Positions 844 through 59,221 of a stretch of 64,000 nucleotides of DNA are shown here, piece after piece. Each line of letters opens with the position of its first letter. The first letter of the stretch is position 1. A program made the position numbers and the translations under genes. The DNA is taken from IMG/VR virus record IMGVR_UViG_3300027917_000018, positions 1 through 64,000 of that record, one strand, 5' to 3'. The DNA comes from a virus. The notes beneath the pieces were generated by a model, which saw nothing but the letters and a program-made list of their open reading frames with translations, was not told the origin of the DNA and did not search any database.

Positions 844-1617
844 ATGAGCTATTTCGGCCCAAGCAGTATCGCTTCTGATCCGGTCACGACGAGTGCCGAC
901 TCGCCGGATTCGCTGCCGATGTCCGGCTTCACGCAGGATCAGCTGGCCGACTACATTTTTCGCCAGTTGGGCGCTCCGACGTGGAACGTGGAACTGACCA
1001 AGCAACAGGTGCTTGATGGGATCAACGACGCCATGCGTCTGTTGAGTCAGTGGTGCCCGAGCTTTCAGGTGGCCCAATTCATCCTCGTGCGGGGCCAGTT
1101 CAAGTACCTGGAAAACGTAAACGTCGAACAGGGCGTGATCGACGTTCAGTTTGTCGAGCCCAATCCGGTGCCGACGGAGATTTTCTACGGAAACCTGATT
1201 AACCCGGCACCGCTGTTCAGACTTGGCCTCGACGAATACGACATTTTCCTCCGGTGGCGCAAGACCTGGCAGCGCGTGACGAGCGTGCGCCCCGACTGGT
1301 TCTACGATGAGGTCCGTCGGACGCTTTACATCCACAACCCAATCGAGCGGTACCAAGCCGCTGTTTTCTACTACGGTAACTGGACGGACATCTCGAAGGT
1401 GCCGTCGCATTACGCCCAGTGGCTCAAGGACTACGCCCTGGAGGCGTCGCGCTTCTTGCTGGGTGAGGTCTGGATGAAGTTCTCCGGGGCTATTCCGGGG
1501 CCGCTTCAAAATCTCCAGCTCGACCAGGCCAAACGGAATCTGGCGGCGGAACGCCTCAAGGAGCTGCGCGAGCAGATCAAGGGAATGCAGCGCGCCGCGC
1601 CGATCATGATTGATTAG
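844..1617 (+). CDS. Putative virion protein (head completion/neck type)
   Basis: A 257-residue protein. The N-terminal 25 residues are Ser/Asp/Pro-rich and look flexible. Then comes a helical part with the pattern Q-L-x-x-Y-I-x-R-x-L-G-A-P followed by V-E-L-T, which I associate with small structural proteins of large T4-like phages. The middle is aromatic-rich and the last 40 residues are a charged helix. I infer a neck or head-tail connector role; this is family resemblance, not proof. Its 3' end overlaps the convergent tubulin-like gene by 4 bases. Confidence 0.5.
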   Translation: MSYFGPSSIASDPVTTSADSPDSLPMSGFTQDQLADYIFRQLGAPTWNVELTKQQVLDGINDAMRLLSQWCPSFQVAQFILVRGQFKYLENVNVEQGVIDVQFVEPNPVPTEIFYGNLINPAPLFRLGLDEYDIFLRWRKTWQRVTSVRPDWFYDEVRRTLYIHNPIERYQAAVFYYGNWTDISKVPSHYAQWLKDYALEASRFLLGEVWMKFSGAIPGPLQNLQLDQAKRNLAAERLKELREQIKGMQRAAPIMID

Positions 1618-2924
1618 TGCTCGCCGAGCACCGGGCCAATACCTGGCTTCTCGTTTACCAGCACGTCGCCAAGCCGCCGAAGCTCCTCCAGCTTTTCTTC
1701 AGGCGAGTTCAAGCCTCCGATCGCCGTATAGACGACCATTGCCTCCTTGGAGCCGCTGTAAATGCCCCGGTGAACCATGCTGCCAGGCTTCAAGAGCCGT
1801 GTCAGCTGGTCGAACGCCTGGTCCAGGTGCTCGTGCGGGACCGAGCCGAGAATGGTGCGGCTGGCAATCACCACCGCTGCGCCGAGCGATCCGCTGCGCA
1901 GGTCCACGCCGCCGGAAAGGATGTTCTGCTTGAGATTTTCCCGGAGCGCGAAGCTGATCGCGGCAGCTTCCATCCATTTGGCGACCGGGGTGGCCCCAAA
2001 GACGATCATGCCGCTGTCCAGAATGGTTTTGAAGTCGTTCGGATCAAACGCCGTGTAGGACGACGCCTGCATGCAGACCGTGTTGAACAGATCGAACAGC
2101 GAACAGATGCTCATGTTGGCCCGCTGCCAAAACGGGTCGATGGCCAGGCCGGGGTACAGGGCACTGATGCGCTCGTTGTCGACCACGATCAGCGGCGAAA
2201 CGTAGCCTTTATCCACCAGCTCGCGCAGTTCGCGCAGGACCCAGTAGGCATTGGCGTTGACGCGCTTGCCTTCGGTGACTTTGGGCAGGGCCAGGACGAC
2301 GCCAACTTTGTCACTTGCGCACTTGTTGGCGATCTGAAGCTCGCGGGCGACGTGGACAAGCCCGACGACTGATCCCGCTCCAGTGCCGCCACCGGCTCCG
2401 GCGCAGATGACGGTTCGGTCATAAACCGGCCCGAAGCATCGGCGCATGAAGTCCAGCACATCCTCGCGCCGATCATGGAATATCTTGGCCGCAGCGGTGG
2501 GGTCCTTACCTGCGCCGCCGTCGCCGATCGCCATTTTATTGGGCTCCGGTAGCTTCAGGGTTGTTAGGTCCTGCTTGGCCGTGTTGATTGCGCAAACGCG
2601 CCGGTAACCAAGCTGGTAAAAGGTCTGCGCCAGGCGTGATCCGCCTTGGCCCGCGCCGATAAAGGCGAACCGGAAAGCGGTTTTCTTGCCATCGGCAATC
2701 TCGACGCGTTCCTGGATTTCCGGCATTGGAATGTCCGGCATCTCCACATCATAGGCGGCGTCAACGGGCTCCGGCTGGGCCGTATCCTCGACCGCAGGGG
2801 CGGGCTCTTGGACCGCTTCTTGAGTCTCTGGAGCGGACGCAGTGATTTCGGCAGTCTGCGGAGCCGTTGTTCCAGGGGCGGGAGCCGGATGCGGCATCGC
2901 TTCAATTTTCTTCTCTTCGCTCAT
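1614..2924 (-). CDS. Tubulin/FtsZ-superfamily GTPase
   Basis: A 436-residue protein. Residues 1-80 are a Pro/Ala/Glu-rich acidic extension. The GTPase core follows: a glycine loop GAGQGG (90-95), an N-T-A-K-Q-D-L segment (114-120) at the place of the FtsZ NTDxQAL loop, the tubulin signature GGGTGAG (178-184), and a T7-like synergy loop near 293-303 (DPNDFKTILD) with acidic residues available for GTP hydrolysis in a filament. Phage tubulins such as PhuZ centre or transport phage DNA; TubZ segregates plasmids. The role here is inferred to be cytoskeletal. It is the last gene of a leftward block with a HAD phosphatase and two small genes. The long N-terminal tail is unusual. PhuZ versus FtsZ/TubZ type cannot be decided by eye. 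Confidence 0.85.
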   Translation of the reverse strand: MSEEKKIEAMPHPAPAPGTTAPQTAEITASAPETQEAVQEPAPAVEDTAQPEPVDAAYDVEMPDIPMPEIQERVEIADGKKTAFRFAFIGAGQGGSRLAQTFYQLGYRRVCAINTAKQDLTTLKLPEPNKMAIGDGGAGKDPTAAAKIFHDRREDVLDFMRRCFGPVYDRTVICAGAGGGTGAGSVVGLVHVARELQIANKCASDKVGVVLALPKVTEGKRVNANAYWVLRELRELVDKGYVSPLIVVDNERISALYPGLAIDPFWQRANMSICSLFDLFNTVCMQASSYTAFDPNDFKTILDSGMIVFGATPVAKWMEAAAISFALRENLKQNILSGGVDLRSGSLGAAVVIASRTILGSVPHEHLDQAFDQLTRLLKPGSMVHRGIYSGSKEAMVVYTAIGGLNSPEEKLEELRRLGDVLVNEKPGIGPVLGEH

Positions 2925-2926
2925 AA

Positions 2927-3292
2927 TCAGTTCGTTTCTCCGGTGTCTTTTATGACCTCAACGGCTCGGTCGTCCCAAAGTTCGGTCATGCCGGGGTCCT
3001 TCTCGTTGGTGACCTCCAGGTCGCCGAGACCGTGCTTCTTGAGCCACGCTTTGATCGGCGCAAGGTTCTTCTTTTCGGAGGCTCGCGCCGTGAAAATCTT
3101 TACCGTCTTTCCGGCCTTGCGCCAACGGCGTATGCGTTCGGCCATCTTGGCTACCGGCGGCCCGATCTTTTCAGGATCAAAAGTCCCTTTCACCGTTTTG
3201 GCCAGCGTGCCATCCAAATCGACGCCGATCCACGGCTCGATCTTTTTCTCTAGCAAATCACTGGCTAGTCGATAGCTCTCTTCGTAACGCAT
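2927..3292 (-). CDS. HAD-superfamily phosphatase
   Basis: A 121-residue protein if started at the ATG at 3292. A longer frame exists upstream but its extra residues overlap the next gene and look non-coding. HAD motif I is visible as V-D-L-D-G-T near residues 24-29, motif II as the F-T-A-R strand, and a late acidic motif as W-D-D-R-A near the C-terminus. Family members dephosphorylate nucleotides, sugars or DNA ends; the substrate here is unknown. CGTAAAC lies just before the start codon. The gene sits 2 bases ahead of the tubulin-like gene, so they are probably co-transcribed. Confidence 0.75.
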   Translation of the reverse strand: MRYEESYRLASDLLEKKIEPWIGVDLDGTLAKTVKGTFDPEKIGPPVAKMAERIRRWRKAGKTVKIFTARASEKKNLAPIKAWLKKHGLGDLEVTNEKDPGMTELWDDRAVEVIKDTGETN

Positions 3293-3297
3293 TTTGT

Positions 3298-3736: not shown

Positions 3737-3755
3737 TTCCGTTCTTTAGAACCGT

Positions 3756-5309
3756 ATGTCGCCAACTTTTTCGCTGATCTACACGAGCGTCCGGCCACAG
3801 ATGATTGGACCTATCCTCGCCACCTGGGTCGAACGCTGCGCCAACAAGGAAGCCATCGAAATCATTCTGACCGTCGACGGTCCAGATGAAGGCTCCAAAG
3901 CGGTGGCCGCCGACCTGGCCACCAAAATGCCCATGCTGCGCTGGTTTGAGCAGCCCGAGGGGCCGTTCAACTGCGTCAAGGGCTGGAACCTGGCAGCCTC
4001 GAAAGCCACCGGCAAAGTGTTCGTCCAGGTGACCGACGACATGATGCCGCCGCAGCACTGGGACGAGGAACTGCTGAAGCTTAAGCCCGAAGGGTGGATT
4101 GACGGCGAGTTCGCCGTTCACGTGGAGGACGGCTATGTCCACGACCTCATGGTCTTAGCTATCATCACCCGCAAGCGCTACGAGCGGTTCGGTTACTTCT
4201 TCTACCCGGATTACGAGAGCATGTTTTGCGACACCGAGCTGACCACAGTCGCCTACCGGGACAAGGTGGTCATCAACGCCAAGCACCTGCTCTTCGAGCA
4301 CATGCACCCGGACGCGCAAAAGCGTAAACGGGACAAGGTTGATCTGGTCCACGCGTCCAAGGAGCGCTGGGTGCGCGGCGAGACGCTTTTCAACCACCGC
4401 CGGGAACGCAATTTTCCAATCGATGTGGGACCCCAGGCGGACAAGACAGCCAAGCCGGTAGGCTACAAGTTTTGCGTTTACACTCAGGCCACCCGCGACG
4501 ATTTCTGCCTACTGGAGGTCGGCAAGCGCATGATGGAGGAAGGCGTCAACGATTTCTTCTTCAGTATTCCAGACGAGTACTGGGCGGGCCGCCCGACGCC
4601 GGAAGAAAACATGTCGCAGGTCGAGCAGGTTGCCCAGCAGTTGCGGCAGCTCGGGGCCAACGTGCGCACCATGCGCCATCCAGTCAGGAAGTACCGCTGG
4701 CCCGGCGACAGCCGGATTACAGTTGAGACCCGCGTGCGCAATGACGCTCTGGCTGAGATTCGTCGGGCAGGATTCGAGCATGTGCTGATCGTCGATGGGG
4801 ACGAGCTGTGGAAGCGCGGCACCCTGAACTACGTTAGAAAGGTTCTCGATGAGTGGCATCCGCTTTCCATCAACTGCCTCATGATCCCCGTCGTGGGCCT
4901 GCCAGGTTACCCCATCGACGGGGCTACCGATGTGGCCGTGATCTACCTTAACTCAAAGGTTCCCTTCAAGGAATGCCGCACGCCCCACGGTGATCAGTTT
5001 CGGCTGCAAATGCCACAGGTTGTCCACTTTACCGGCACCAGAAAGACGATGGAGGAAACGATCCAGAAGCATCTGGACAGCGGCCACTACGACGATCCCG
5101 AGTACGATTTCGACTACTGGATCAAAAACGTCCTGCCCAACATTAAGCCTGGCTATCGTCACACGTTCCCGGACGGCCAGGTCGGCATCCACATGTTCAA
5201 GCGCTATCAAATCTGGCCTTCTGTTCGGCACTGGATGCCGGAAGAGGTCACGCAGTTGCCGCAGGCGCTTCATCCCTATCTCGGTATCGAGCAGCCTGCG
5301 ACCCCGTGA
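3756..5309 (+). CDS. Two-domain GT2-like glycosyltransferase
   Basis: A 517-residue protein. The N-terminal half (about 1-215) looks like a GT-A fold: a beta-alpha start, T-V-D-G-P-D-E, then V-T-D-D-M near residue 94, the likely metal- and nucleotide-sugar-binding acidic motif. A second GT-A-like domain starts near residue 235 and has L-I-V-D-G-D-E-L-W near 346. Two catalytic-type domains in one chain could add two sugars in turn. The acceptor is unknown (virion protein, modified DNA base or host surface). A GT9-like enzyme follows. Starts at ATG 3756 in a 19-base divergent gap. Confidence 0.7.
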   Translation: MSPTFSLIYTSVRPQMIGPILATWVERCANKEAIEIILTVDGPDEGSKAVAADLATKMPMLRWFEQPEGPFNCVKGWNLAASKATGKVFVQVTDDMMPPQHWDEELLKLKPEGWIDGEFAVHVEDGYVHDLMVLAIITRKRYERFGYFFYPDYESMFCDTELTTVAYRDKVVINAKHLLFEHMHPDAQKRKRDKVDLVHASKERWVRGETLFNHRRERNFPIDVGPQADKTAKPVGYKFCVYTQATRDDFCLLEVGKRMMEEGVNDFFFSIPDEYWAGRPTPEENMSQVEQVAQQLRQLGANVRTMRHPVRKYRWPGDSRITVETRVRNDALAEIRRAGFEHVLIVDGDELWKRGTLNYVRKVLDEWHPLSINCLMIPVVGLPGYPIDGATDVAVIYLNSKVPFKECRTPHGDQFRLQMPQVVHFTGTRKTMEETIQKHLDSGHYDDPEYDFDYWIKNVLPNIKPGYRHTFPDGQVGIHMFKRYQIWPSVRHWMPEEVTQLPQALHPYLGIEQPATP

Positions 5310-5310
5310 G

Positions 5311-8901: not shown

Positions 8902-10311
8902 ATGGGCAAGGCCAAGATCAAGAGCACGAACCGCGACCTTCAGGGCCGGATTCTCACGGCGCTCAATCACATGCGGCCCAAAAAGGCCGACAAGGGAACC
9001 TTCATCGTAGGCCGGTCGACCGAAGAATCACCAACCAAGGTCCGTTATCTGGTGACGACGGGCATCCGCGCCTTCGATGATCGCGTGGGCGGGATGCCCG
9101 TTGGCAAAACCATTGAGCTGATCGGTATGCCGCAGAGCGGCAAGACGAACATGGCTGTGCGCACGTGCGTCCGGGCGCAGATGGGCCACATTTACGAGCG
9201 CGTCGAGGACGACGGCGGCAAGATCACGCTCAAGAAGCTCAAGCCGGGCACTTATGACGTGACCACAATGTACTACGACAACGAAGGGTCGCTGTCAGAC
9301 TTCGATAAGCGCCGGGTTGACGGTGTCCTCATGGACGGCCTGATCATTCCCTGCGACACGGTCGAGCTGCTCTGGAAGACGATGGATAGGGTCATTGTCG
9401 AGGTTGACAAGGAGGAAGAGGAAACCGGTCGGCTCCAAATCTTGATCGTTGTCATCGACACTGTCGGCATCATGAGTACGGCGATGGAGATGGAGAAGGA
9501 ATTCGGCAAGATCGACTACCCACGCGTGCCCAAGCAGCTCAAGGACGGCTTCAAGCGTATGACGGGCAAGATGATGCGGGAAAACGTCCTGCTCATTGGC
9601 TTGAACCATGTCAGCAAGAAGCTGGTTCAGGGCTACAAGCGCGGACCCGGTATGAAGGGCTGGGAATACCAGCAGCCCGGCGGCCTGGCCTTCAGCTACT
9701 GCTCCTTCCATCAGGTCTATTTTGAGACGCTCCAGGTCAAATATCGGCTCGCTAAACGGGGCAGCCCCGACGGGTACCTGGTCTATTTCTGCGCCATGAA
9801 AAACCGGATCATGCCGCCTCTCCGGGAATGTCGTATGGCGCTGCTGTTCACAGTGAAAAACGGGGAAACCCAGGAAATACTTCGGGAGGGCGGCTTTAAC
9901 GACGAGCTTTCGATTCTGGAGGCCCTGATCTACGACAAGGCCGCCGAGATTAAAAAGGACGGCACCGGGATTGTGTTCAGGTTTTCCGCGTTTGGCGTCG
10001 AGACAACCACGTTCTCTAAGGGTGAGTCAACGCCCAGTCTTGAAGAGCAGGATGAAAACGACGACGATGATGGTGGCACTTCGCGTAAACGAAAATCGTC
10101 CAAGCCGGACGCCCGGCCTCGGCGGCTTTTCAATCCGCGCATTTCGACTCGTGGTGAGTGGCACGACTTTTACGCCGAGCACAAGGCTGACCTCGATGCG
10201 CTCTACGACCGGGCGACACAGGCGGCGACCTGCGGCGACCTCATGCCCAGCAAGGGCGCGTTTCCAGAGGACGAGGACGAGGCCGATGAGGACAACGAAC
10301 TAGAGCCATGA
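8902..10311 (+). CDS. uvsX: UvsX/RecA-like recombinase
   Basis: A 469-residue protein. Walker A is GMPQSGKT at 75-82 and a Walker B-like strand ends in D186 (I-V-V-I-D-T). The Q-P-G-G-L-A-F-S-Y segment around 255 matches the DNA-binding L2 area of UvsX-type proteins. The C-terminal 110 residues add an acidic D/E-rich linker, a basic patch and a final acidic end, giving a longer chain than T4 UvsX (391). It performs strand exchange in recombination-dependent replication with the two preceding proteins. The next gene overlaps by 4 bases. Confidence 0.85.
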   Translation: MGKAKIKSTNRDLQGRILTALNHMRPKKADKGTFIVGRSTEESPTKVRYLVTTGIRAFDDRVGGMPVGKTIELIGMPQSGKTNMAVRTCVRAQMGHIYERVEDDGGKITLKKLKPGTYDVTTMYYDNEGSLSDFDKRRVDGVLMDGLIIPCDTVELLWKTMDRVIVEVDKEEEETGRLQILIVVIDTVGIMSTAMEMEKEFGKIDYPRVPKQLKDGFKRMTGKMMRENVLLIGLNHVSKKLVQGYKRGPGMKGWEYQQPGGLAFSYCSFHQVYFETLQVKYRLAKRGSPDGYLVYFCAMKNRIMPPLRECRMALLFTVKNGETQEILREGGFNDELSILEALIYDKAAEIKKDGTGIVFRFSAFGVETTTFSKGESTPSLEEQDENDDDDGGTSRKRKSSKPDARPRRLFNPRISTRGEWHDFYAEHKADLDALYDRATQAATCGDLMPSKGAFPEDEDEADEDNELEP

Positions 10312-10945: not shown

Positions 10946-11875
10946 ATGGCTAAGAAGGAATCTTCAGGTCCGGTTAGCGCGCTAAAAACGCCCTCGATAG
11001 GGCGCTACAACCGCATTCTTTCAATCCTGGGATCGCAGCCAGCCTTCAAGGACCGGCTGGGACCGTGCGATCACGAGGTTGCCAAGCGGACAGGAGGGAC
11101 CGTGGTGTACCCGCGTGGCGTGGTCGCCGTAGCCGACGCGATTCACGTCCAGGGCTACGACTCGCACACTGCTCCGCCGCCGTTGGTCCTGAACATTGCC
11201 GGTGAAGTCCTGAAGAAGATCAAATACGGCACCAAAAAGCCGGAAGCCAAAGCCGTAGACGCGCCAAAGAAGCCGCCACGAATCAGGGCAGCCAAGCCCG
11301 AACCCAAGCCCAAGGCCGAGCCTGAGCCTGCAAAGCCTGAATCCAAGCCTGAGCCCAAGCCTGAAGCTAAAGTAGAGGAACCAAAGCCCGCCGCACCAGC
11401 CACAGAAGCGCCAAAACGAAGGCGGAAGAAGGCTGAAACGCCAGCTCCCGTTGCCGCCAAAGAAGACGTTCCCGCAGCGCCACCGGCACCACCAGCTGCC
11501 GAAAAACCCAAGCGTGTCAGAGCCAAGGCTGCGGCTGGAGAGCCGCCACGGCGCAAAGCTGTCCGGCCTCCAGATACGGAGGCCAAGAGGGCGTTGGAGA
11601 GAGCCGCTGAGGCCGCCAAAGGCCAGGAACCGGCCAAGGTGCCGGATGACGAACGGGTGCCTTACTATTACCCGTTTACGGTCTGCCTTTCGCTGATGCT
11701 GACCACGCTGAACATCCTGGAACTTTCGGACACTGAGGCCGGGAACGATTCCCGAAAGAAGAAAGTGACCGAATTGGTAGGCGAGCTGAACAAGCTCAAG
11801 GCCCGGCCCGTCCTGTTGCCCGCAGACATGAAGCCCTATCTTGAGCATGCCGAAAGCGCCCAGCAAAAAGCCTAG
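10946..11875 (+). CDS. Hypothetical protein with a long Pro/Lys/Glu/Ala linker
   Basis: A 309-residue protein from ATG 10946. Residues 1-95 look folded. About 96-235 is a low-complexity linker of K-P-E-P repeats and basic clusters (R-R-R-K-K). The final 75 residues form a helical domain. Such a chain could tether two partners or DNA. It overlaps the sigma-like gene by 29 bases, so they are probably co-expressed. No family is recognised. Confidence 0.6.
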   Translation: MAKKESSGPVSALKTPSIGRYNRILSILGSQPAFKDRLGPCDHEVAKRTGGTVVYPRGVVAVADAIHVQGYDSHTAPPPLVLNIAGEVLKKIKYGTKKPEAKAVDAPKKPPRIRAAKPEPKPKAEPEPAKPESKPEPKPEAKVEEPKPAAPATEAPKRRRKKAETPAPVAAKEDVPAAPPAPPAAEKPKRVRAKAAAGEPPRRKAVRPPDTEAKRALERAAEAAKGQEPAKVPDDERVPYYYPFTVCLSLMLTTLNILELSDTEAGNDSRKKKVTELVGELNKLKARPVLLPADMKPYLEHAESAQQKA

Positions 11876-12866
11876 TCCTCCGAAGGGCCAGCATATTTTC
11901 GCTGATGACGAGCTGCATCAACTTGCGCTCCGTTGGAAGGAATTGAACGCCCAGGCCCGCCACGACGAGGCGATGCTCGTCCTGGAGCAGATCATCAAGG
12001 GCTCGACTCAAATGTTCGAGCGGTTTGCCCAACACGAGAAGTACCACAACACGGTTGACCTGGACACCTTGGTCAGCGCCGCGCAGGAGAAAGTCGTGAA
12101 GTGGCTGCTGCGCTGGGACCCGCGTCGTGGCAAACTGTTTACGTGGTTCAGCAAGTGCGCCAAGCACGCCTTTCTGAGCGAGCTGGTTAAGGTCAACAAC
12201 TACCGCAGGCGCTTCCACGCGACTTCCGACAATCTGGAGACTTTCGTGGGTGTTGAGGACCACGAGGTTGACCGCCACGACATGAGCCAGATGGTCCGCG
12301 AAAAGCTCTCCCAGCTCACATGCCGATGGGGCAATCCACAAGAGATTGGCGCGATCCGCTACTTCATCGACTGTATTGTGGAGGACACCGACAAGCGGGA
12401 CCGTAACGCCATGATCCGGGCCGTCGTTTACGCCTGGGGCGTCAGTTGGGATCAGGCCAAATACTTTCATCGGTGGGCGCTGGCAGAACTGCGATCGGCC
12501 TTTTTCGACTGTATCCGCTTCCCTATCACAGAGGAGGAGCTGTTCATGCTCCGCCATGCCTACAGCGACGCCGTCGACCTGGTGCCCATTATTGGCTGGG
12601 AAAGGTGGAAACAAGCTTGCGTGCGCCACGGTGGATCGAGGATAAAGTTTCCTCCGATCGCCGCCATCATTCGGGCCAAGCAGGATTACAAGATGAGCCT
12701 GGAGATTGCCCGGAGCGACAACGACCCTGATAGTATTGCCAGGATCGCGGCCCGGCACAAGCGCACGGCCAAGTCCGCCAGCGACACCTACGAGGAAATG
12801 ACGGAAAGCTTGAAGCGCGAGCACGCTGGAAGGCACCACATTTACGGTGAACACGAGCACGCTTGA
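11847..12866 (+). CDS. Sigma-70-family-like factor (gp55-type, putative late sigma)
   Basis: A 339-residue protein from ATG 11847. Residues about 60-125 carry the sigma region 2 pattern: D-L-D-T-L-V-S-A-A-Q-E-K-V at the start, R-W-D-P-R-R-G-K-L-F-T-W-F in the middle, then a helix leading to a basic Y-R-R-R-F end. Region 2 binds the beta-prime coiled coil of RNA polymerase and the -10 element. The rest is helical without a clear region 4, as in T4 gp55. It is the best candidate reader of the TAGTTA elements. A second sigma-like gene overlaps its end. Confidence 0.6.
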   Translation: MPKAPSKKPSPPKGQHIFADDELHQLALRWKELNAQARHDEAMLVLEQIIKGSTQMFERFAQHEKYHNTVDLDTLVSAAQEKVVKWLLRWDPRRGKLFTWFSKCAKHAFLSELVKVNNYRRRFHATSDNLETFVGVEDHEVDRHDMSQMVREKLSQLTCRWGNPQEIGAIRYFIDCIVEDTDKRDRNAMIRAVVYAWGVSWDQAKYFHRWALAELRSAFFDCIRFPITEEELFMLRHAYSDAVDLVPIIGWERWKQACVRHGGSRIKFPPIAAIIRAKQDYKMSLEIARSDNDPDSIARIAARHKRTAKSASDTYEEMTESLKREHAGRHHIYGEHEHA

Positions 12867-14283
12867 TTACCTGACGCTGCCCAGGGCTTACCTGAGCGCG
12901 GTCATTAGCCTGCGGGTGGACTTTTACCCTGGTCCGCCTGTGAAGGTCGCTCTTCGTCTTGAAGACATGCAATCCGACCTGGACCGCATGATTGCCAGCG
13001 CTGCGACGCATTTTGTCGATCAGAGCTGCGTGATGCTTCACCGGGACGAGCTGGAGGCCGAGGGCCGCATGGCCATCCGCAATGTCCTGATCAAAGACTG
13101 GCTAACACGGGCCAGGAACCGCGTCGAATTCTTCAAGATCGCCAAGACGGCGGTCATGAACCGCATCCGTAGTCTGGTTCAACAACACCGATTCACGCAA
13201 AAGCGCACAGGGCGCAAGCCGCCGAACCGCAACGAGCCGCTGAGCTGGGAAAGCCACCGGCCCAACGAAGTCAGCCTGGACGACCCTGACGCACATTTGC
13301 AGGTTGGGGAGGCTTACACCGAGGCTGAAATCGACGCGGTCGAACTGGAGAAGGAAATTCGTTTACGCTTGGAGGGCCTACCACTTTTTGTGTTCGACGC
13401 AATGCTAGAGCTGCCGCTTACCGCCTTGAAGCTTGCGGAGCTGGACGCCTACCGTGGCCGCAGGGCGCAGCGGTGCCGCATACGGATCACGGAGCAGAAC
13501 ATAGCGGAAGCCCTGCAAATTCCCGTCGAACTGTATAGGAAAGCTGTTCTTCAGGTACAAAATGTTACGCGTCAAGTCCGCAGCATGAATCCTGAATTGC
13601 AAGATTACGAATTTACGGTCGAGCACCTTTCCTCCGTGTTCGGCGTCCAGGTGCCAAAGTCGATGCCCACCATGTTGGTCCGGCGTTTGTTTACGATTGC
13701 CGCTTGGAACCAGGTCGAAAAGGTTACCCCGGAGGTATCCGACAAACTGGAGATGATTGGGGCCAAAGTGCCGAAGTGGAATGGTTCCACTGTGAGCTGC
13801 TTCGGCATCCTCTACAACGAGGGCAACAAGACCTGCGAGAGCTGTGGCGTCAAGGAAAGCTGCGCCAGCGAGGCTGCCAATGCGGGTTTGGGCACCATCG
13901 TTTACAGCCACCGTGCCCTGGGCGCACGAGCACAGCGCACAGCTTACATCTTGCCCAATGCCCAAGCCCGAAGCGAGCCGCCGGTTACCTCAAGCTGGCG
14001 TGATTCGGAAATTGCCGATTACCTTCACCGAAACTTTGCCAGGGTCAGCCACCAGAGCGAGACTTACTACCGCCCGAAGGATTTCAAGGATAAGTCCAAG
14101 CTCCTTTTCTGCATCGGAGCGCGCACCATTCCATTTCGTTTACGTTTTTGCAATCCCAGCCAAAAGCTGCGCCCTCGGTTGGAAAAGCGGGGCCGGATGT
14201 ATTACGCCCCTGCCTCGGGTTCGGCTGAGGAGGTCATCGCATTGATCGACGAGCACGTTCGCAACGCTTATGCCGTCCACTGA
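12847..14283 (+). CDS. Second sigma-like/transcription protein with a Cys cluster
   Basis: A 478-residue protein with a GTG start at 12847, overlapping the previous gene by 20 bases; an ATG at 12967 is an alternative. Residues about 57-120 again look like sigma region 2 (H-R-D-E-L-E-A-E-G start, a helix ending N-R-I-R-S-L-V-Q-Q-H-R). The centre is helical with R-I-T-E-Q-N-I-A-E-A-L, like a helix-turn-helix. A cluster C-E-S-C-x5-C near 330 could bind metal. I infer a role in phage transcription, perhaps a divergent sigma or co-activator. Three CGTTTACG-type sites lie within it. Confidence 0.5.
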   Translation: MNTSTLDYLTLPRAYLSAVISLRVDFYPGPPVKVALRLEDMQSDLDRMIASAATHFVDQSCVMLHRDELEAEGRMAIRNVLIKDWLTRARNRVEFFKIAKTAVMNRIRSLVQQHRFTQKRTGRKPPNRNEPLSWESHRPNEVSLDDPDAHLQVGEAYTEAEIDAVELEKEIRLRLEGLPLFVFDAMLELPLTALKLAELDAYRGRRAQRCRIRITEQNIAEALQIPVELYRKAVLQVQNVTRQVRSMNPELQDYEFTVEHLSSVFGVQVPKSMPTMLVRRLFTIAAWNQVEKVTPEVSDKLEMIGAKVPKWNGSTVSCFGILYNEGNKTCESCGVKESCASEAANAGLGTIVYSHRALGARAQRTAYILPNAQARSEPPVTSSWRDSEIADYLHRNFARVSHQSETYYRPKDFKDKSKLLFCIGARTIPFRLRFCNPSQKLRPRLEKRGRMYYAPASGSAEEVIALIDEHVRNAYAVH

Positions 14284-14644
14284 CATCCATGCCGATAAGA
14301 AGGCCGACACGGTTGTTGCCGAGCCGGTCATGACCCAGTGGCAGGCCCTGCGCCAGGTCGGCTGGGTCCAGCCAATCGATTTCATCATCCTATTTCTGGT
14401 TTTCATGGTCGCACTGACCATGATCTTCTGGTCGATTTTTGCGGAGCCGACCGGCGTTCAACTGATGACCTGTGCCATCATCGGATTCGCCATTTGCCAG
14501 CTCTGGATGATTTTGCTCGTTTACCGCTGCATGCACTTTGTTCTCACCATACAAGCCTACCTGAACAACCTTCCCTACGAGGCCGCCAGGATCGCGATGG
14601 CCGGAATGACCGGCAAGCCGATGGAGCCTCCCACACGACGATGA
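14270..14644 (+). CDS. Small membrane protein with two transmembrane helices
   Basis: A 124-residue protein. Hydrophobic segments at about 38-58 and 65-88 should span the membrane as a hairpin, with a charged N-terminus and a short basic C-terminus. Size and topology would suit a holin or other inner-membrane protein, but no lysozyme is adjacent, so the role stays open. Overlaps both neighbours (14 and 4 bases). Confidence 0.6.
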   Translation: MPSTDIHADKKADTVVAEPVMTQWQALRQVGWVQPIDFIILFLVFMVALTMIFWSIFAEPTGVQLMTCAIIGFAICQLWMILLVYRCMHFVLTIQAYLNNLPYEAARIAMAGMTGKPMEPPTRR

Positions 14645-14931
14645 AGAAAACGCTCACCCGCGAGGACGCCGCCCTGGAAATCTCCCAACGCGTGGGCTGC
14701 GCGATCACGCTCGCCCGGCGCTTTCTGGATACGAGCATCGACGTGATGAGTGACGCGCTCCTGGCAGGACGCAAGGTCGAATTCCGCAATTTTGGCGTTT
14801 TTCGTGTGGTGAAGCGAAAGCCTCGCGTGGGCCGCAACCCCAAGGAGCCGGAGGCCGGGCGCATTGAAATCCCGTCCAAGCTGGGAATCAAGTTCAAGAC
14901 CAGTCCCCACCTGGAAAAGAAGCTCAAATGA
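14641..14931 (+). CDS. HU/IHF-family DNA-binding protein
   Basis: A 96-residue protein from ATG 14641 (usual HU length about 90). It has the N-terminal helical half, then V-E-F-R-N-F-G-V-F and a beta-arm R-x-G-R-N-P-K, matching the HU consensus RNPxT arm that bends DNA. It could compact phage DNA or assist recombination and transcription. ATGA overlap with the membrane-protein gene. Confidence 0.9.
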   Translation: MKKTLTREDAALEISQRVGCAITLARRFLDTSIDVMSDALLAGRKVEFRNFGVFRVVKRKPRVGRNPKEPEAGRIEIPSKLGIKFKTSPHLEKKLK

Positions 14932-28406: not shown

Positions 28407-28426
28407 AGCTCAAATTCGTTTACGGG

Positions 28427-39230: not shown

Positions 39231-39257
39231 CCGGACGTAAACGAAGCTGAACTTGTT

Positions 39258-44218: not shown

Positions 44219-46429
44219 ATGGCAACGATTCGCACGAAAACATTTCCGGGCGTCTATACGCAAATCATCGACCGGAGCTATCTGCTACCGCAGACAAGCC
44301 GGTTCCGTGGCGGCCTGATTGGCGTGGCGCGTAAAGGCCCGTTTGACACGCCAACCTCAGTGCGGTCGCTCCAGGAATTCCAGCGGCTGTTTGGCCAACC
44401 TCTGGTTGGGAACTATTTCCTGGCCAATGCGGTCGCCATTCTGTCCGACCTCACGGACGGCATGAAGGTGGTCCGTGTCGGGTTCCGGTCCGACAGCCTG
44501 CCGGGTGCGACCTTCACGGCTTCGGCGCTTTCCGTCACTGGGACGGTTACGCCCTACGCCAAGGGGTCGGTGCTCGATCCGGCGCTGTGGAGCGGGGACG
44601 TTTACGTCACCGTCAAGCAGGCTGGGCTGGCGCAGACTGTCAACCAGGTTGTGACCTCGGTCGGCAGCATCGGCCCGGACAGCGCCCTGGTTTCGTTTAC
44701 GGACGCCGACGCCATCAAGGCTCTCTACACCAACGCGACGGTCGAGTACTCGATCGGCAACCCGCACGCCAACGAGGCTCAGGGCCTGCTTTACGCCTAC
44801 ACCTACGGCTCCAACAGCGGCGATCCGTGGGATGCCCCGCTTTACACGGGCTCCTACGTGGTGACCTGCTCGGGCGATAAGGGCGACTACGAGATTCAGC
44901 TGACCCACCCGAGCACCTATTCGCTTTTCGCCGTTGGTGACCTGCTCAAGATCAGCCAAACCGGCAAGAACGACACCCAGGAAGTCAGGGTCAAGCAGGC
45001 GCTCCCCGATGGGCGCGTGTTGCTGGAAACCACCGATTTGCCGGGCAAGGGCTACCAAGCCCTGGCGCTTCAGGACAGCTACACGGCTGCCTACGTTTAC
45101 CGGAAAACCGGCTCCATCTCCTACATCAACCTTGAGGCGGCTTCGGCGGGTGACTGGGCCAACAGTGGCGACATCACCGCCGGGCTCTTCGTTAAGGTGC
45201 GCCCCGGCGGCAAGGCCAACACCAAGAAGTTCGAGGTTTACGAGGACGGGGCCTTGGTCGAGACCATCGACAACCTCTACAACGGCAGCGGCACCAATTC
45301 GTGGTCGGGCCGGATCAACGGCAACAGCCAGTACATCAGCGTCGTCAGCGTGGCCACGTCCGGGACGATGAATTACCTCCCGGCCAATTACAGCTATGGC
45401 TACGAGGCCGGGGCCTATCTGATCAACTCCGGGTACAACAACTCGGGCGGCAGCTTCAGTGAAGGCTACAACGGCGAGGCCGCCACGGCGGAGGACTTCA
45501 TTGGACGCTACGACCCGACGACGGATCGGTACACCGGCATCCAGTCCTTCATCGATACGCCCGAGGCGCGGGTCGACATCATGTGCTGCCCCGGCATCAC
45601 CGACGGCGGAAGCTACGATCCGCTCGGCGGCGACACCAGCGGCCTCCACCGCCGGATGTATGAAGTCTGCAACCGGATCAATGCCCTGGCCATCATCGAC
45701 GTTCCTCCGGCGCTCAATGCTCGGCAGGCCATCGACTGGCACAATGGCGATGGCCTCTACAGCGGGCGTGGCCGGATCGACAGCTACAACATCAGCTGTT
45801 TCTGGAACTGGTTCACCATTTCCGACCCGTTCACCGGGGAGGACAAGACGGTGCCGCCCACCTTGGGCGCTCTGCGATGTTTGGCCTTCACGTTCGACCG
45901 CGACAAGCCGTGGTATGTGGCGGCGGGCGACCAGCGCGGCATCATCCCCGAGGCCAAGTACGTCGAGTTCGAGCACGTGTCCGACGACACCAAGCAGTCG
46001 ATGTACGGCAACGGGCAGTCCATCAACGGCATCTTCCTCGATCGGGGACAGATCAAGCTGTGGGGCGAGCGGACGATGCAGGTGGCCGAGAGCAAGCTCT
46101 CCGTCAACCACAACGTTATCCTCGTCAACTATGTGGTCTACAACCTGTCGGAGATTGGCCGCCGGTTCATCTTCGAGCCCAACGATCCCGAGCTGCTGGT
46201 GCGGGTCCGCCTGGCCTTCGCCCAGTTCCTCGACAACGTCAAGACGGAGCGCGGCATCGAGGAATACGTGCTGGTCATTGACGACACCAACAACTCGGCG
46301 GACACGCGGAACCGCCGCGAGGTCATTGTTGACCTGGCTATTGTCCCGACCGATTCGGTCGAGCGCATCTACATCACCGCCACGGTGCGCGAAAGCGGCG
46401 CGGTGCTTGATGAACTGAACGCTGAGTAA
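44219..46429 (+). CDS. Tail sheath protein (gp18-like)
   Basis: A 736-residue protein. It opens with the sheath start K-T-F-P-G-V-Y-T-Q-I-I-D-R-S, contains the long variable middle with G-D-W-A-N and Y-S-Y-G segments, and ends with the conserved C-terminal domain: I-K-L-W-G-E-R-T-M near 615-625 and A-F-A-Q-F-L, then V-R-E-S-G. These match T4 gp18-type sheaths (659 residues in T4), which contract to drive the tube into the cell. Tube and tail genes follow. Confidence 0.9.
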   Translation: MATIRTKTFPGVYTQIIDRSYLLPQTSRFRGGLIGVARKGPFDTPTSVRSLQEFQRLFGQPLVGNYFLANAVAILSDLTDGMKVVRVGFRSDSLPGATFTASALSVTGTVTPYAKGSVLDPALWSGDVYVTVKQAGLAQTVNQVVTSVGSIGPDSALVSFTDADAIKALYTNATVEYSIGNPHANEAQGLLYAYTYGSNSGDPWDAPLYTGSYVVTCSGDKGDYEIQLTHPSTYSLFAVGDLLKISQTGKNDTQEVRVKQALPDGRVLLETTDLPGKGYQALALQDSYTAAYVYRKTGSISYINLEAASAGDWANSGDITAGLFVKVRPGGKANTKKFEVYEDGALVETIDNLYNGSGTNSWSGRINGNSQYISVVSVATSGTMNYLPANYSYGYEAGAYLINSGYNNSGGSFSEGYNGEAATAEDFIGRYDPTTDRYTGIQSFIDTPEARVDIMCCPGITDGGSYDPLGGDTSGLHRRMYEVCNRINALAIIDVPPALNARQAIDWHNGDGLYSGRGRIDSYNISCFWNWFTISDPFTGEDKTVPPTLGALRCLAFTFDRDKPWYVAAGDQRGIIPEAKYVEFEHVSDDTKQSMYGNGQSINGIFLDRGQIKLWGERTMQVAESKLSVNHNVILVNYVVYNLSEIGRRFIFEPNDPELLVRVRLAFAQFLDNVKTERGIEEYVLVIDDTNNSADTRNRREVIVDLAIVPTDSVERIYITATVRESGAVLDELNAE

Positions 46430-49775: not shown

Positions 49776-50774
49776 TTATTCCACGAAGACCTTCTGCGAG
49801 ATGAGCTGGGCGGACTGCGGCTGGATCACGGTTGGTGGCACCTGCGGCGGACTGGTTGGCGTCCCTGGCGTGGCGCTGGTGTGAGTATGCGTGCCCAGCC
49901 ACGCCAGAAGTGAGGCAACCCAGGTCGTGAATTGGATGCCCTTGACGGCGGGCTCGACTGCCGATTCGCTGCCGATCCGTAAAAGCGGGGCCGTGGCGAC
50001 GAAGCTGCTCTGCGCCGTCAAATTGATCTGGTTGGCGGTGACCTCAAAATTGTTTACGAAAGTCGCGCTCAAACCCGAGTCGCCGCTGGCGATCACGTCG
50101 CCCACGAAGTCCAGGTTCGTGTTGCCTGCGATCGTCATATCCAGATCGCCGCTCATGGTCTCCACCCGGATGCTGTTGGCCTGGATGTTCAGCTCCAAGC
50201 CGATTTGCATGTAGAAGTCCTCCAGGATATTCAACAGGCCACCTTGGGTTTCGTCGTTCAGCTCCAAAAACTGTCCGCTTTGCGTGATAAGCTGGAGGTA
50301 GCCGTCGGAGCCAGCACTTGTGGCGTCCAGAGCAAAAAGCCGGTAACCCTTGGAGGTTGTCAGGACGATGCTGCCGGAGGTCCATTCGACCGTGTGGCCG
50401 TAACGGGTCAGAGCGGAGCGCTTGGGCTTGCCTTGGCTCGGACCGACGGCTTCGTACTGGTGAAGCGGAAAATCCTCGTTGGCGGTCGTCGTTTGCATGA
50501 ACCAGGCCCACACCGGCTTTTCCGGTTCGCCGTCGAGGAACTGTACGGCGACCTGGTCACCTGGCTCCGGTAGCCAATCCATGCCGCCGCTTTGCTGAGA
50601 CTGCCCGGCGGGCAGGCCCAAGGGGATCGCCCACGGCAAGTCATCAAGCGGGACCTGGCCGACTGCGCTGCCAAGAATGCCGTAAACGTGCGGTACGCGC
50701 ACTTTAACGCGGCCCAGCTTCTCCGGGTCGTTGACCGCTTCGACCTTTCCAACGTAAATGCCGTTGAGATTCAT
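49776..50774 (-). CDS. Baseplate spike protein (gp5-like)
   Basis: A 332-residue protein from the ATG at 50774. The N-terminal domain is the gp5 OB-fold: Y-V-G-K-V-E-A-V-N-D-P-E-K-L-G-R-V-K-V-R-V then Y-G-I. It is followed by W-I-P-like strands, and a repeat-rich beta-prism (S-I-R-V-E, N-I-Q-A) characteristic of membrane-piercing spikes. No lysozyme domain is present, unlike T4 gp5. The C-terminus has H-T-H-T followed by Pro-rich residues, similar to metal-binding spike tips. Confidence 0.75.
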   Translation of the reverse strand: MNLNGIYVGKVEAVNDPEKLGRVKVRVPHVYGILGSAVGQVPLDDLPWAIPLGLPAGQSQQSGGMDWLPEPGDQVAVQFLDGEPEKPVWAWFMQTTTANEDFPLHQYEAVGPSQGKPKRSALTRYGHTVEWTSGSIVLTTSKGYRLFALDATSAGSDGYLQLITQSGQFLELNDETQGGLLNILEDFYMQIGLELNIQANSIRVETMSGDLDMTIAGNTNLDFVGDVIASGDSGLSATFVNNFEVTANQINLTAQSSFVATAPLLRIGSESAVEPAVKGIQFTTWVASLLAWLGTHTHTSATPGTPTSPPQVPPTVIQPQSAQLISQKVFVE

Positions 50775-51590: not shown

Positions 51591-52711
51591 GCGACCAAGC
51601 AACAGTCCTGCGCCAGATGAGGCCGCCCTACGCGGGCAACGCCAAAATCGTTTACGGCTTTCGCCGCTCCGTTCCTAAAAACTTCGGCTATACGCTGGAG
51701 ATTCCGGTGGGTGGCAACGTCATCGCCCCGGCTGACGGCTCCGTCGAGCTTATTCAGCCGAGTTCGGTCGGATGGCGCTATACCAGTCCTGCGTTAAAGG
51801 GAGGCGCGATCCTGATTCGCATTAACCACGGCTACGGGGTCAAAACCTACATTCACGGCGTTGCCAATCCCAGCGTCGGCTACGGCCAGGTGACGCGGGG
51901 ACAGGTGCTCGGAACCTCGGCTTATGGCGAGGTCTTTTTTGCCGTCGAAGTCTTTGGTTCCATGACCAACCCGTCGCGGGTCAACAGTTTCTTCGCGCCG
52001 CGCAGCGGCAATCTTTACGCGGGTCAGTCCGCGACCATTCGGCAGGCTCCGAACGTGGGCACCTGGTTTGTCTCGGCGCTATCCCAAGTCTGGTACAACG
52101 GCCTTCGTTATTTTACCACGCCCCAACCGTTTTTCGTAAACGTGGATTTCAACGGCGGAGGTTCCAAAGCAGGGCTAGCGGCGGTGGGCTACGCGGAAAC
52201 CGATTACTGGAACGTGCTGGTGCCCTTGGCGGGGCCTTTTGGCTACGCCTCCTACACCACGGACTGCGGCCCGACAGCCTATACCTGGACGGCGGAGCCC
52301 AGCGTCCCGCTGCTGGATTACCGAGGCAAGCCCTCGAAGGTTAGCCTGCGGCGCGTTATCGAGGACAATTTCTATGGCTCCAGCGCTGAATTCGACCCGA
52401 TGCTTAGCACCTACTACGGTGGCTGGAGCGGCAGCACGCCTCGCCAGCAGTGGTACGACATTCGGGGCTTAGCGCCGGGGTCGTACGACATCTACGTTTA
52501 CGCCAATCAGAAAAGTGGCTCGTACACTTCGATCATTTCGATGGCAGTGGCTGGCAGCCTTCCCACGACAAAAGTGCCGCTCAGCACGACTCAGGCTGCT
52601 TGGATTGAGGATTACAATTACGTCAAGTTCACCAAGACCCTGGGTGTCGGCGACTACTTGACCTTTGAGGTCTTAGGCTACATAGGCGGCCTGCAAATCA
52701 CGCGTTCTTAA
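51587..52711 (+). CDS. M23 (LytM)-like protein with lost catalytic residues
   Basis: A 374-residue protein, GTG start 51587. Residues 20-125 follow the M23 peptidase pattern: F-G-Y-T-L-E-I-P-V-G-G then I-A-P-A-D-G-S-V, H81-G-Y-G and Y-I-H90, then T-R-G-Q-V-L-G-T. The first H-x(n)-D pair is not visible (N-F-G-Y-T-L-E stands there), so zinc binding is likely lost and the domain may only bind peptidoglycan. The remaining 250 residues are beta-rich, as in a tail-tip protein. Confidence 0.6.
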   Translation: MSDQATVLRQMRPPYAGNAKIVYGFRRSVPKNFGYTLEIPVGGNVIAPADGSVELIQPSSVGWRYTSPALKGGAILIRINHGYGVKTYIHGVANPSVGYGQVTRGQVLGTSAYGEVFFAVEVFGSMTNPSRVNSFFAPRSGNLYAGQSATIRQAPNVGTWFVSALSQVWYNGLRYFTTPQPFFVNVDFNGGGSKAGLAAVGYAETDYWNVLVPLAGPFGYASYTTDCGPTAYTWTAEPSVPLLDYRGKPSKVSLRRVIEDNFYGSSAEFDPMLSTYYGGWSGSTPRQQWYDIRGLAPGSYDIYVYANQKSGSYTSIISMAVAGSLPTTKVPLSTTQAAWIEDYNYVKFTKTLGVGDYLTFEVLGYIGGLQITRS

Positions 52712-55857: not shown

Positions 55858-55876
55858 CAGCCTGTGGTTCAAAGCC

Positions 55877-56440: not shown

Positions 56441-57366
56441 AAAGGCAAAAGATCGATGATCGGTTTCCAAGCAAAGTGATGTACAGGACGCATCCGTGCG
56501 TTTTTGAGCGCTCAATCGCGCCCGAGCCTGGAACCGCGTGGGCGGTGCGGGGACCCAGGCGGCTGATGACTTACCGCGTAGAGCTTGAGCCCCTGAACCA
56601 GCGCAGCTCGACGTGCCTGTGTCCTCTCGACGATAACTGGACGCCCATGTACCATTTGGAGCACCACCTGGATTTCGGTCTTCCGCGCAATGAACAGCGC
56701 ATGGCCATCGAGGAGGACTGCCGGTTGTTCAATTTTTGCGGCAGGGTTTGGTTCAACATCACCAACCGCAACGATACGTTCCTGGGCGAGCTGGATTGGC
56801 AGGCCCACGACCCGAAGGTGGTCGGCTGCGGCATTCTCGCGTTTCCGTTTGAGGTCGGCAGCACGGAAAAGAACTGGATGTTCTTTGAACAGGGTGGCCT
56901 GCTCTACGGGGTCAGATGGGTTCACGCCCACGTCGTTCATCGGATTTACCCCGACTTCCAGAAAGGTCACGCGGTTAGCGAGCCTATCGTCCACGAATAC
57001 CGGCTGGACTGGCCGCATGGCCGTCCCCACGGCGGCACGTCGCCAGTTGCGATCGGCGACGAGTACCTCAGCCTTTTTCAGTCCAGCAAGCTCGCTGCGG
57101 TAAATGGCCGCAAAGACTACTACGTTGGCGTTTACGCTTTTGAGGCCAAGCCACCTTTTAGGGTTACGCGTGTGCCAAAAGAGCCTTTGATTTCTCCGCT
57201 GACCTGGCCCGAACATTCTGTCGGGTTCAATGGGCACAACACTTTCTTTCCGTTGGGCCTTGCACGAGAGAACGACACCTGGAGGGTCAGTCTTGGGGAT
57301 GACCGCGCCATGTGGCTGCTCGAATACAGCACCGATGAACTCCTCGACGCAACCAAACCTGTTTGA
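56437..57366 (+). CDS. GH130-like five-bladed propeller protein
   Basis: A 309-residue protein, ATG 56437 (ATGA overlap). The second half has G-G-T-S-P-V-A-I-G-D-E-Y-L-S, then Y-Y-V-G-V-Y-A-F-E-A-K-P-P-F and a final F-N-G-H-N-T-F-F-P-L-G, matching the blade pattern of GH130 mannoside phosphorylases and relatives. It could cut or phosphorolyse a mannose-containing glycan or bind it. The acidic catalytic residue cannot be fixed by eye. Confidence 0.6.
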   Translation: MKRQKIDDRFPSKVMYRTHPCVFERSIAPEPGTAWAVRGPRRLMTYRVELEPLNQRSSTCLCPLDDNWTPMYHLEHHLDFGLPRNEQRMAIEEDCRLFNFCGRVWFNITNRNDTFLGELDWQAHDPKVVGCGILAFPFEVGSTEKNWMFFEQGGLLYGVRWVHAHVVHRIYPDFQKGHAVSEPIVHEYRLDWPHGRPHGGTSPVAIGDEYLSLFQSSKLAAVNGRKDYYVGVYAFEAKPPFRVTRVPKEPLISPLTWPEHSVGFNGHNTFFPLGLARENDTWRVSLGDDRAMWLLEYSTDELLDATKPV

Positions 57367-57958
57367 GCTGATGGAGCAGACGATGGGAATGCTCTGCTTT
57401 CCCAGGGCCACCCATCTGGCGCATTACCTTCTTCAGACGGCCACGGTTCCAGGAGCGGTGGCTGAATTTGGCTGCCACCAGGGCCGTACGGCGGCCTTTA
57501 TGACGGCTCTGACCAAGAAGCACGTTTACGTTTACGATAGCTTTGCCGGGCTGCCGCCACCGTCGGAGCATGACAGGCCATCGGAGGTCTTCCACGAGGG
57601 CGCGATGGCTATAAGCCCGCAAGAGCTGGTAGACCTATTCAAGAGACTCGGGCTGCGCACACCGATCATTGAGCCCGGCTTCTTCAAGGACCTCCAGCCC
57701 CACCAGTTGCCCAAGGAAATCGCTTTTGCCCACTTGGACGGCGACTTCTACGAAAGCATTGCGGGGCCGCTGTACGTGGTCTGGCCGAGGCTGTCGCCCG
57801 GAGGCTACATCGTGGTCGACGATTGGGACTGGGACCAGCTACCGGGCGTCACGGACGCGGTCAAGGCGTGGTCGAAAGATATAGGGATCAAGCCGGAGGT
57901 TCAGTACGGCACGGACGGGGCAGGATGCCACCAGGCGGTGCTGCACAAACCTAGTTAG
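57335..57958 (+). CDS. Second TylF-like methyltransferase
   Basis: A 207-residue protein from ATG 57335 (32-base overlap); ATG 57371 is an alternative. V-A-E-F-G-C-H-Q-G-R-T-A is SAM motif I, then V-Y-D-S-F-A-G-L-P, A-H-L-D-G-D-F-Y and G-G-Y-I-V-V-D-D-W, parallel to the 55877 protein, so the two are paralogues in a tandem with the propeller between. CGTTTACGTTTACG (57523-57536) is the only overlapping pair of the octamer. Last gene of the island; overlaps the convergent gene by 8 bases. Confidence 0.8.
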   Translation: MNSSTQPNLFELMEQTMGMLCFPRATHLAHYLLQTATVPGAVAEFGCHQGRTAAFMTALTKKHVYVYDSFAGLPPPSEHDRPSEVFHEGAMAISPQELVDLFKRLGLRTPIIEPGFFKDLQPHQLPKEIAFAHLDGDFYESIAGPLYVVWPRLSPGGYIVVDDWDWDQLPGVTDAVKAWSKDIGIKPEVQYGTDGAGCHQAVLHKPS

Positions 57959-58145: not shown

Positions 58146-58151
58146 CGTTCT

Positions 58152-58157
58152 TAACTA
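58152..58157 (-). promoter_or_regulatory. TAGTTA element, minus strand
   Basis: Minus-strand CGTAGTTAAGAACG, 6 bases before ATG 58145. The divergent primase start at 58160 is 2 bases away. Confidence 0.45.
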
Positions 58158-58159
58158 CG

Positions 58160-59221
58160 ATGACTGGCGATCAGCTACGCGAAACGGTCGAGCAGCTCTT
58201 TCAGCCGGTGCCGCACCGCAGCACCGCGACGGAGCTGGCTTTCGTCTGCCCGCAGCCCGGATGCACGGATTCTTCCGGCCACCGATCCGTTAACCTGAAG
58301 ACCGGCCAGACCAACTGCTGGATTTGCGGGGTCGGCGGCGATTTTGTGCGCTGGGCACAGCGGCTTGGCTACGCGGTCACGGAGGAACACCGGGTTACCA
58401 AGCCGATGGAGGAGGCTGAGTTCGACCGCATCAGCCGGACTCCGGTCAATGACTTGCCGGTGGTCACCAATATCAAACTGCCGAAGGGTTTCAGGCTTTG
58501 CCGGGACTACCCGAACAGCGTTTACACGGAATTCATCGCCGAAATGGCCGAGCGCAAGGGACTGAAAATCGATGACCTCATGTCCGTGAGTGTGGGCTTT
58601 ACGAAGACCGATCCGTTATGGGAGCCTTACGCGATCTTCCCCAGTTTCGAGTATGACAAGGTCGTTTACTATCAAGGCCGGACCTATGTCGACGAGCCCG
58701 ACCAGAAAACCAAGAAGTTCCCCAGCCGCCGGGAAGTTCCCTACAGCGCCAAGTACTGGGTCTACGGCATTGACGAACTGCGCGCCGAGCGGCCCGAGAC
58801 CGTGCTGGTCATGGAATCCATTTTGAACGTGCTGACCATGCGGCGGTTCATGCGCCGTCACAAAATCAAAGGCGTCGGTACAGCCTGTGTTTTCAGCCAC
58901 AGCATCAGCGAGCCGCAGGCCACCAAACTCAGGCAGCTGGAATTCCTGAAGGAGGTTGTGCTTCTATTCGACCACGACGCGACTCGTCGCGGCTGGCAGA
59001 AATCGCCCAGGCTCGGCAACAAGTTCAACCTGACGATCGCGGACATGCCGCCTGGCCCCGGCGGCGAGAAGAATGACCCGAACGACGATCCAGAGGGTGC
59101 GTGGCGGGCTTTTGAAAAGCGCGAGCACGTGAATACTGTTTTGGCTGCTGGTGCCGACATGTTCGATTTCGACCGGGAACCGCTGGACGCTGATTCGTTT
59201 ACGCGCCGACGCCGTTCTTAG
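58160..59221 (+). CDS. DNA primase (zinc and TOPRIM domains)
   Basis: A 353-residue protein. A zinc-binding domain C30, C35, H41, C53, C56 is at the N-terminus. After a middle domain, V-L-V-M-E-S near 215 (TOPRIM Glu) and V-L-L-F-D-H-D-A-T near 268-276 (TOPRIM DxD) give the metal site. The layout fits DnaG/gp61-type primases, which make RNA primers for lagging strands. Length is close to T4 gp61 (342). CGTTTACG at 59206 sits near the 3' end. Confidence 0.85.
   Translation: MTGDQLRETVEQLFQPVPHRSTATELAFVCPQPGCTDSSGHRSVNLKTGQTNCWICGVGGDFVRWAQRLGYAVTEEHRVTKPMEEAEFDRISRTPVNDLPVVTNIKLPKGFRLCRDYPNSVYTEFIAEMAERKGLKIDDLMSVSVGFTKTDPLWEPYAIFPSFEYDKVVYYQGRTYVDEPDQKTKKFPSRREVPYSAKYWVYGIDELRAERPETVLVMESILNVLTMRRFMRRHKIKGVGTACVFSHSISEPQATKLRQLEFLKEVVLLFDHDATRRGWQKSPRLGNKFNLTIADMPPGPGGEKNDPNDDPEGAWRAFEKREHVNTVLAAGADMFDFDREPLDADSFTRRRRS

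Follow-up and report, generated by a model that had tools for sequence, protein, structure and literature searches.

The stretch analysed here, called the window throughout, comprises bases 1–64,000 of IMG/VR virus record IMGVR_UViG_3300027917_000018 (202,975 bp; the whole record is labelled G000), and the octamer CGTTTACG is the subject of this report. Marker genes of the record assign the phage, which is uncultured and jumbo, to the T4 superfamily; they encode a gp23-type major head protein, a head maturation protease, UvsX, an SbcC-like nuclease subunit, a tail sheath, a gp20-type portal, a DnaB-like helicase and a gp55-like late sigma factor. Between positions 1116 and 59203 the window carries 30 exact copies of CGTTTACG, 18 on the plus and 12 on the minus strand and three of them intergenic, where an order-2 Markov model expects 2.2 (Table 1). 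The initial annotation had likewise counted 30 copies against roughly 1.5–2 expected and had placed them on both strands and in non-coding gaps; the count is exact, although it understates the excess in view of the record-wide figures.

In the full record CGTTTACG occurs 96 times (57 plus, 39 minus), far above the 6.6 copies expected from an order-2 and the 11.9 expected from an order-3 model, while its reversed reading occurs 11 times. Under both models GTTTAC, CGTTTAC and CGTTTACG are the top-ranked 6-, 7- and 8-mers of the genome. Inspection of the single-base neighbours of the octamer revealed that the core GTTTAC is fixed, with C or T as the first base and G or A as the last. CGTTTACG thus belongs to a broader motif, YGTTTACR, which has dyad symmetry over 8 bp except for the two central bases and is found at 198 sites in the record, about one per kb. 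The flank-swapped form RGT..ACY is present at 0.5–1.4 times expectation in all genomes with more than two sites, and both flanks of YGT..ACR are constrained.

Table 1. Copies of the octamer, cores of the same motif class and selected genes in the window.
Feature	Position	Strand	Remarks
CGTTTACG copy	1116–1123	-	
CGTTTACG copy	4323–4330	-	
CGTTTACG copy	10084–10091	-	
CGTTTACG copy	11673–11680	+	
CGTTTACG copy	12425–12432	+	
CGTTTACG copy	13360–13367	+	in frame CGT TTA CG
CGTTTACG copy	14137–14144	+	in frame CGT TTA CG
CGTTTACG copy	15378–15385	+	in frame CGT TTA CG
CGTTTACG copy	16819–16826	-	
CGTTTACG copy	22675–22682	+	
CGTTTACG copy	27411–27418	-	
CGTTTACG copy	27672–27679	-	
CGTTTACG copy	28417–28424	+	intergenic
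CGTTTACG copy	33000–33007	+	
CGTTTACG copy	36119–36126	+	
CGTTTACG copy	36584–36591	-	
CGTTTACG copy	39236–39243	-	intergenic
CGTTTACG copy	42062–42069	-	
CGTTTACG copy	43752–43759	-	
CGTTTACG copy	44157–44164	+	intergenic
CGTTTACG copy	44599–44606	+	tail sheath gene
CGTTTACG copy	44694–44701	+	tail sheath gene
CGTTTACG copy	50681–50688	-	
CGTTTACG copy	51649–51656	+	
CGTTTACG copy	52135–52142	-	
CGTTTACG copy	52495–52502	+	
CGTTTACG copy	57129–57136	+	
CGTTTACG copy	57523–57530	+	overlaps the next copy (CGTTTACGTTTACG)
CGTTTACG copy	57529–57536	+	overlaps the preceding copy
CGTTTACG copy	59196–59203	+	
GTTTAC cores, all 85 (57 CGTTTAC)	span 364–63407	.	share their motif class with the exact octamers
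gp55-like late sigma factor gene	11847–12866	+	phrog_234, E 4.6e-4; belongs to the transcription system encoded by the phage; conserved in relatives
HU/IHF-family gene	14641–14931	+	PF00216, E 5.8e-19; not supported as clade-wide reader
Tubulin-like protein gene	about 2157–2663	-	PF00091, E 3e-11
N6/N4 DNA methylase gene	29166–29912	+	PF01555, E 4.9e-17; no match in most near relatives

In order to separate selection on DNA from selection on protein, synonymous codons were permuted within each gene, which keeps both the protein and its codon usage. Exact CGTTTACG copies in the genes of the record number 84 as against 11.2 ± 3.3 after shuffling, and YGTTTACR sites 176 as against 27 ± 4, the counts obtained ranging over 174–176 and 27–28. 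The flank-swapped control, by comparison, hardly changes on shuffling (26 as against 28, 0.9-fold). The enrichment of YGTTTACR extends to all five stop-free combinations of phase and strand, at 9.6- and 10.8-fold in antisense and 28-, 7.6- and 4.6-fold in sense; the sixth would require an in-frame TAA. These results strongly support selection on DNA and not on protein, as the initial annotation had proposed from the use of all codon phases, and the excess persists under the codon and dipeptide control that it had called for. Codon, dipeptide or strand bias as the cause is ruled out by the shuffling and the phase tests. An explanation by codon, dipeptide or mutational bias devoid of function could appeal to Val-Tyr (GTN TAC) as the commonest in-gene context, but with 27 of 176 sites left after shuffling, roughly 10-fold enrichment in the antisense phases and an unenriched flank-swapped control it is scarcely credible, barring a context-dependent mutational process that affects both strands. 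The octamer does lie in phase 0, with the Leu codon TTA, in the genes at 13360, 14137 and 15378, as had been remarked, but the motif accounts for only 8 of the 97 TTA codons. There is no strand effect beyond codon constraint and both gene strands are enriched; because the site is in addition nearly palindromic, the Chi-like role suggested earlier is unlikely.

The motif is also indifferent to the kind of gene in which it lies, with enrichment of 5.8-fold in orphan, 6.6-fold in clade-only and 6.4-fold in core genes and an equal density. Since core and orphan genes are equally dense in sites, a genome-level function such as compaction, silencing, packaging or self-recognition fits better than gene-by-gene regulation. 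A packaging or origin signal, also among the roles first suggested, is possible. Regions that had been described as sparse are within random expectation, the coefficient of variation (CV) of the gaps being 0.98 against 0.99 ± 0.07 under the null. A rate of about one per kb, on both strands, at random spacing and in all gene classes including orphans, resembles the statistics of DNA uptake sequences, and raises the possibility of a self-recognition or packaging tag: dispersed loading signals, pac-like or uptake-like, through which a terminase or another DNA-handling protein would prefer phage over host DNA, and which would accumulate by drive. However, no link to the terminase was shown, packaging of the T4 type needs little sequence specificity, and the fixed promoter overlap seen in relatives (below) is not predicted, so that we consider a tag of this kind improbable.

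A search with the major head protein returned 55 IMG/VR loci, and 21 further records were read whole or in part. The motif was compared in 12 near relatives (major head protein 77–81% identical where measured) and in a set of far relatives (68–73%). Several of the records are fragments, so that a missing gene carries little weight except where a record is near-complete. Conservation, another check put forward at the outset, is borne out: all but one of the 12 near relatives have YGT(TT/AT/CT)ACR in excess within genes, with a centre that is specific to the lineage, so that the site appears as TGTATACA, CGTCTACA or TGTTTACA (YGTATACR, YGTCTACR and YGTTTACR). AT is the centre in G002 and G003, AT together with CT in G008, CT in G009 and G007, and TT in G005, G001 and G006, while G017, G019 and G004 are mixed. 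Most near genomes of at least 100 kb hold about 100–280 sites, and G001 holds 46. Turnover is rapid: when orthologous genes are aligned, only 4–27% of the G000 sites line up, codon for codon, with a site of that class in a relative, often at Val-Tyr; thus positions change while density is maintained. In the far relatives in-gene copies are near expectation, except that a few sites (11, 7 and 11) occur in G012, G015 and G016, which are G+C-rich, and TGTTTACA is mostly intergenic (30 of 36 in G011, 30 of 33 in G014, 20 of 25 in G012) and not dispersed. Cultured T4-superfamily relatives were considered as laboratory models, but the dispersed motif appears in none of eight records (one being metagenomic) from each of which 50 kb was sampled. 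In one Listeria phage, LIS04 (L155, 80–130 kb), AAACGTTTATA-type words are strongly over-represented, AAACGTTT occurring 22 times, both strands taken together, against 0.9 expected; these are possibly a promoter element.

The choice of centre coincides with the avoidance of restriction sites. In G000 (203 kb) 29 of the 64 palindromic hexamers are absent, with up to 145 copies expected of each; they include GTATAC and, for example, CCCGGG, GGGCCC, CGGCCG and GGATCC. RGATCY is absent as well, and CCCCC/GGGGG occurs once against 237–717 expected. The avoided sets differ between relatives: G004 and G019 avoid words of the CCWGG type, G014 and G005 words that contain GTAC. GTATAC has no copy in G000, and G005, G001 and G006 have no site of the GTATAC or GTCTAC type. 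The centres that are missing are those that would fall in avoided restriction sites, and other centres take their place; therefore, the centre can vary but the arms cannot. Compensation for the avoided GTATAC is too small to be the cause, with about 11 sites expected to be lost against some 210 gained. The extreme avoidance in the clade and the N6/N4 methylase of this phage would both suit a modification- or restriction-related site, either methylated itself or shielding the genome from a nuclease, and methylation was among the roles first suggested. But methylases of three families (PF01555, PF02086 and PF00145) are sporadic and absent from the motif-bearing G019, G002 and G017, and a methylation target need not be enriched, which makes this explanation highly improbable.

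Other dispersed words were observed alongside the motif. TTACGGATCG has 29 copies in G000 against 0.5 expected (in the window, for example, at 27834, 37650 and 49973), and ACGGATCG has 73, of which 63 lie in genes as against 8.5 after codon shuffling, in all six phases. ACGGATCG forms short tandem arrays with a 15–16-bp spacing near 107.0, 107.8 and 137.5 kb, and the TTACGGATCG/ACGGATCG word is almost confined to G000. G004 has a further genome-specific word of this kind in its first 120 kb: CCCGGC is in 5-fold excess, in each of the six phases, and numbers 172 copies in genes as against 40 after codon shuffling.

The relatives further revealed a link between the motif and promoters. Among 608 oriented intergenic sites of the near relatives, 55 have a TTGAC that ends exactly 13–14 bp upstream, with counts of 0–3 at other distances, and for in-gene sites the distance profile is flat. 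The resulting layout is TTGACR-N12/13-YGTNTACRtT, often with an ATG 8–11 bases further on, and the site therefore covers the promoter −10 region. In G019 and G002 the genes behind such promoters are mostly lineage-specific open reading frames, with no recognised structural gene among them. In the far relative G014 a −10 box follows 48% of the intergenic TGTTTACA copies against 2.4% in the control, an arrangement that matches a T4 early promoter, as the −35 box of the latter is GTTTAC (PMC1524935). The in-gene sites of this phage could by that token be remnant or decoy promoter boxes, the genome being full of polymerase-binding half-promoters, and a −10 box follows TGTTTACA in G011 and G012 as well. 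Yet the in-gene sites here have no −10 or −35 partner box above control (a −10 box 15–19 bp downstream of in-gene GTTTAC in 0% against 0.3%), which rules out in-gene promoters, and no conserved flanks were found around them; decoy boxes thus have a very low probability, marginally below that of a modification site. A different box, GTAGTTA, stands 4–15 bases before a start codon in the window at 834, 15815, 42597, the 44200 area and 59843; it is found upstream of the portal, sheath, connector and other genes, several times at orthologous places in G019 and G002, and is likely a late-promoter box for the gp55-like sigma factor.

Sites of which some overlap promoters and most do not recall the two-part layout of L5-type phages (PMC6550527), and motif variants differ among relatives just as stoperators do. 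By analogy with cluster A mycobacteriophages, a repressor might thus bind operators at promoters, while hundreds of in-gene sites would block RNA polymerase. Against such silencing, the site is 8 bp long and symmetric instead of 13 bp and asymmetric, it occurs in both orientations and mostly within genes, core genes being equally dense, and 11 genomes contain neither an integrase (PF00589) nor a ParB (PF02195) domain, HTH_3 being confined to two far-clade genomes. We regard stoperator-like silencing as unlikely on these grounds, and integrase-linked lysogeny as a common cause is rejected.

Candidate readers of the motif were then sought. An HU-like protein had been proposed, and the gene is indeed present in the window; PF00216 is found in most near genomes but is absent from G003 and from G002, which carries one of the strongest motifs and has an unrelated open reading frame at the syntenic place. 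A partition role had been suggested on account of the tubulin-like gene. This gene exists, but PF00091 is found in only 4 of 11 clade genomes (it is absent from G002 and G005), and ParB in none. Neither proposal is upheld. A small helix-turn-helix protein of G002 was rejected, its homologues being limited to G003, G004, G008 and G011, and so were the genes specific to the near clade: some have no DNA-binding domain that could be recognised, others are acidic or resemble membrane proteins, or have no counterpart in G002. Clustering of the sites, or an autoregulated gene, would have been a clue to the reader, but no clusters were found.

A symmetric octamer with a flexible centre, selection at the level of DNA, independence of gene class and overlap with a promoter box in relatives lead us to favour, tentatively, YGTNTACR (CGTTTACG in this phage) as the site recognised by a DNA-binding protein that is sequence-specific, probably a dimer, and active genome-wide in this clade of jumbo phages, and that the phage itself may encode. 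The site would at first have belonged to early promoters of the phages. Within the near clade the protein would next have come to bind throughout the genome, after which a density of about one site per kb would have arisen, by selection or by drive, across all gene classes and both strands. Once bound, the protein might compact or silence the phage genome or mark it as self, in the manner of a nucleoid protein; a promoter whose −10 box lies under the site would be repressed by it. Four observations weigh against this proposal. The sites of this genome are randomly spaced and lack the clustering that would suggest cooperative filaments (those of G002 are spaced more evenly than by chance, CV 0.80 against 0.99). 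No single DNA-binding gene tracks the motif in domain searches of up to 11 genomes. The near relative G018, a 64-kb fragment, has only 7 sites. Finally, neither the partner-box nor the TTGAC-distance test detected promoter overlap in this phage, and the operator part of the proposal consequently rests on the relatives. A more specific version, possible but doubtful, is that a lytic clade of the T4 superfamily uses a genome-wide self-tag or chromatin code, in which a dimeric phage protein would read the octamer about once per kb in every gene class, with fast turnover, a density held constant even in orphans, and a centre that each lineage selects anew, thereby evading the restriction enzymes of the host.

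Dispersed recognition words such as Chi, DNA uptake sequences and stoperators show how a cell or a phage distinguishes its own DNA. If our reading is right, a symmetric word at about one per kb, conserved in scheme and re-centred per lineage in an apparently lytic jumbo phage, would point to a global DNA-binding protein and offer a computable handle to find it; the genome also displays two simultaneous selections, a strong gain of one word and a near-total loss of dozens of restriction palindromes. Literature searches yielded nothing direct on the motif or on similar over-representation in jumbo phages, and comparison is with systems known elsewhere. Chi is directional and strand-biased, in contrast to the dyad-symmetric motif. 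The sites of nucleoid proteins and those of the parS, NBS or matS type are short palindromes read by a dimer and spread over the chromosome, but their density per kb is far lower and their readers are known, whereas here ParB is lacking and HU is not clade-wide. DNA uptake sequences of Neisseria and Pasteurellaceae come closest in statistics, being short words enriched at the DNA level at about one per kb on both strands, coding regions included, as the motif is; they occur in competent bacteria, are read by an uptake pilin and are not dyad-symmetric, and no such uptake system exists here. The T4 early −35 box (PMC1524935) shares the core hexamer, and TGTTTACA is such a box in far relatives, but the copies of this phage and of its near relatives are mostly located within genes and lack a −10 partner there, and promoter copies in near relatives cover the −10 and not the −35 region. 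Stoperators of the temperate cluster A mycobacteriophages L5 and Bxb1 number 20–30 per genome and are oriented with transcription (PMC6550527), unlike the far more numerous YGTNNACR sites of these phages. They nevertheless share with the motif many dispersed copies of one protein-type site, a minority of them at promoters, and a consensus that drifts among relatives.

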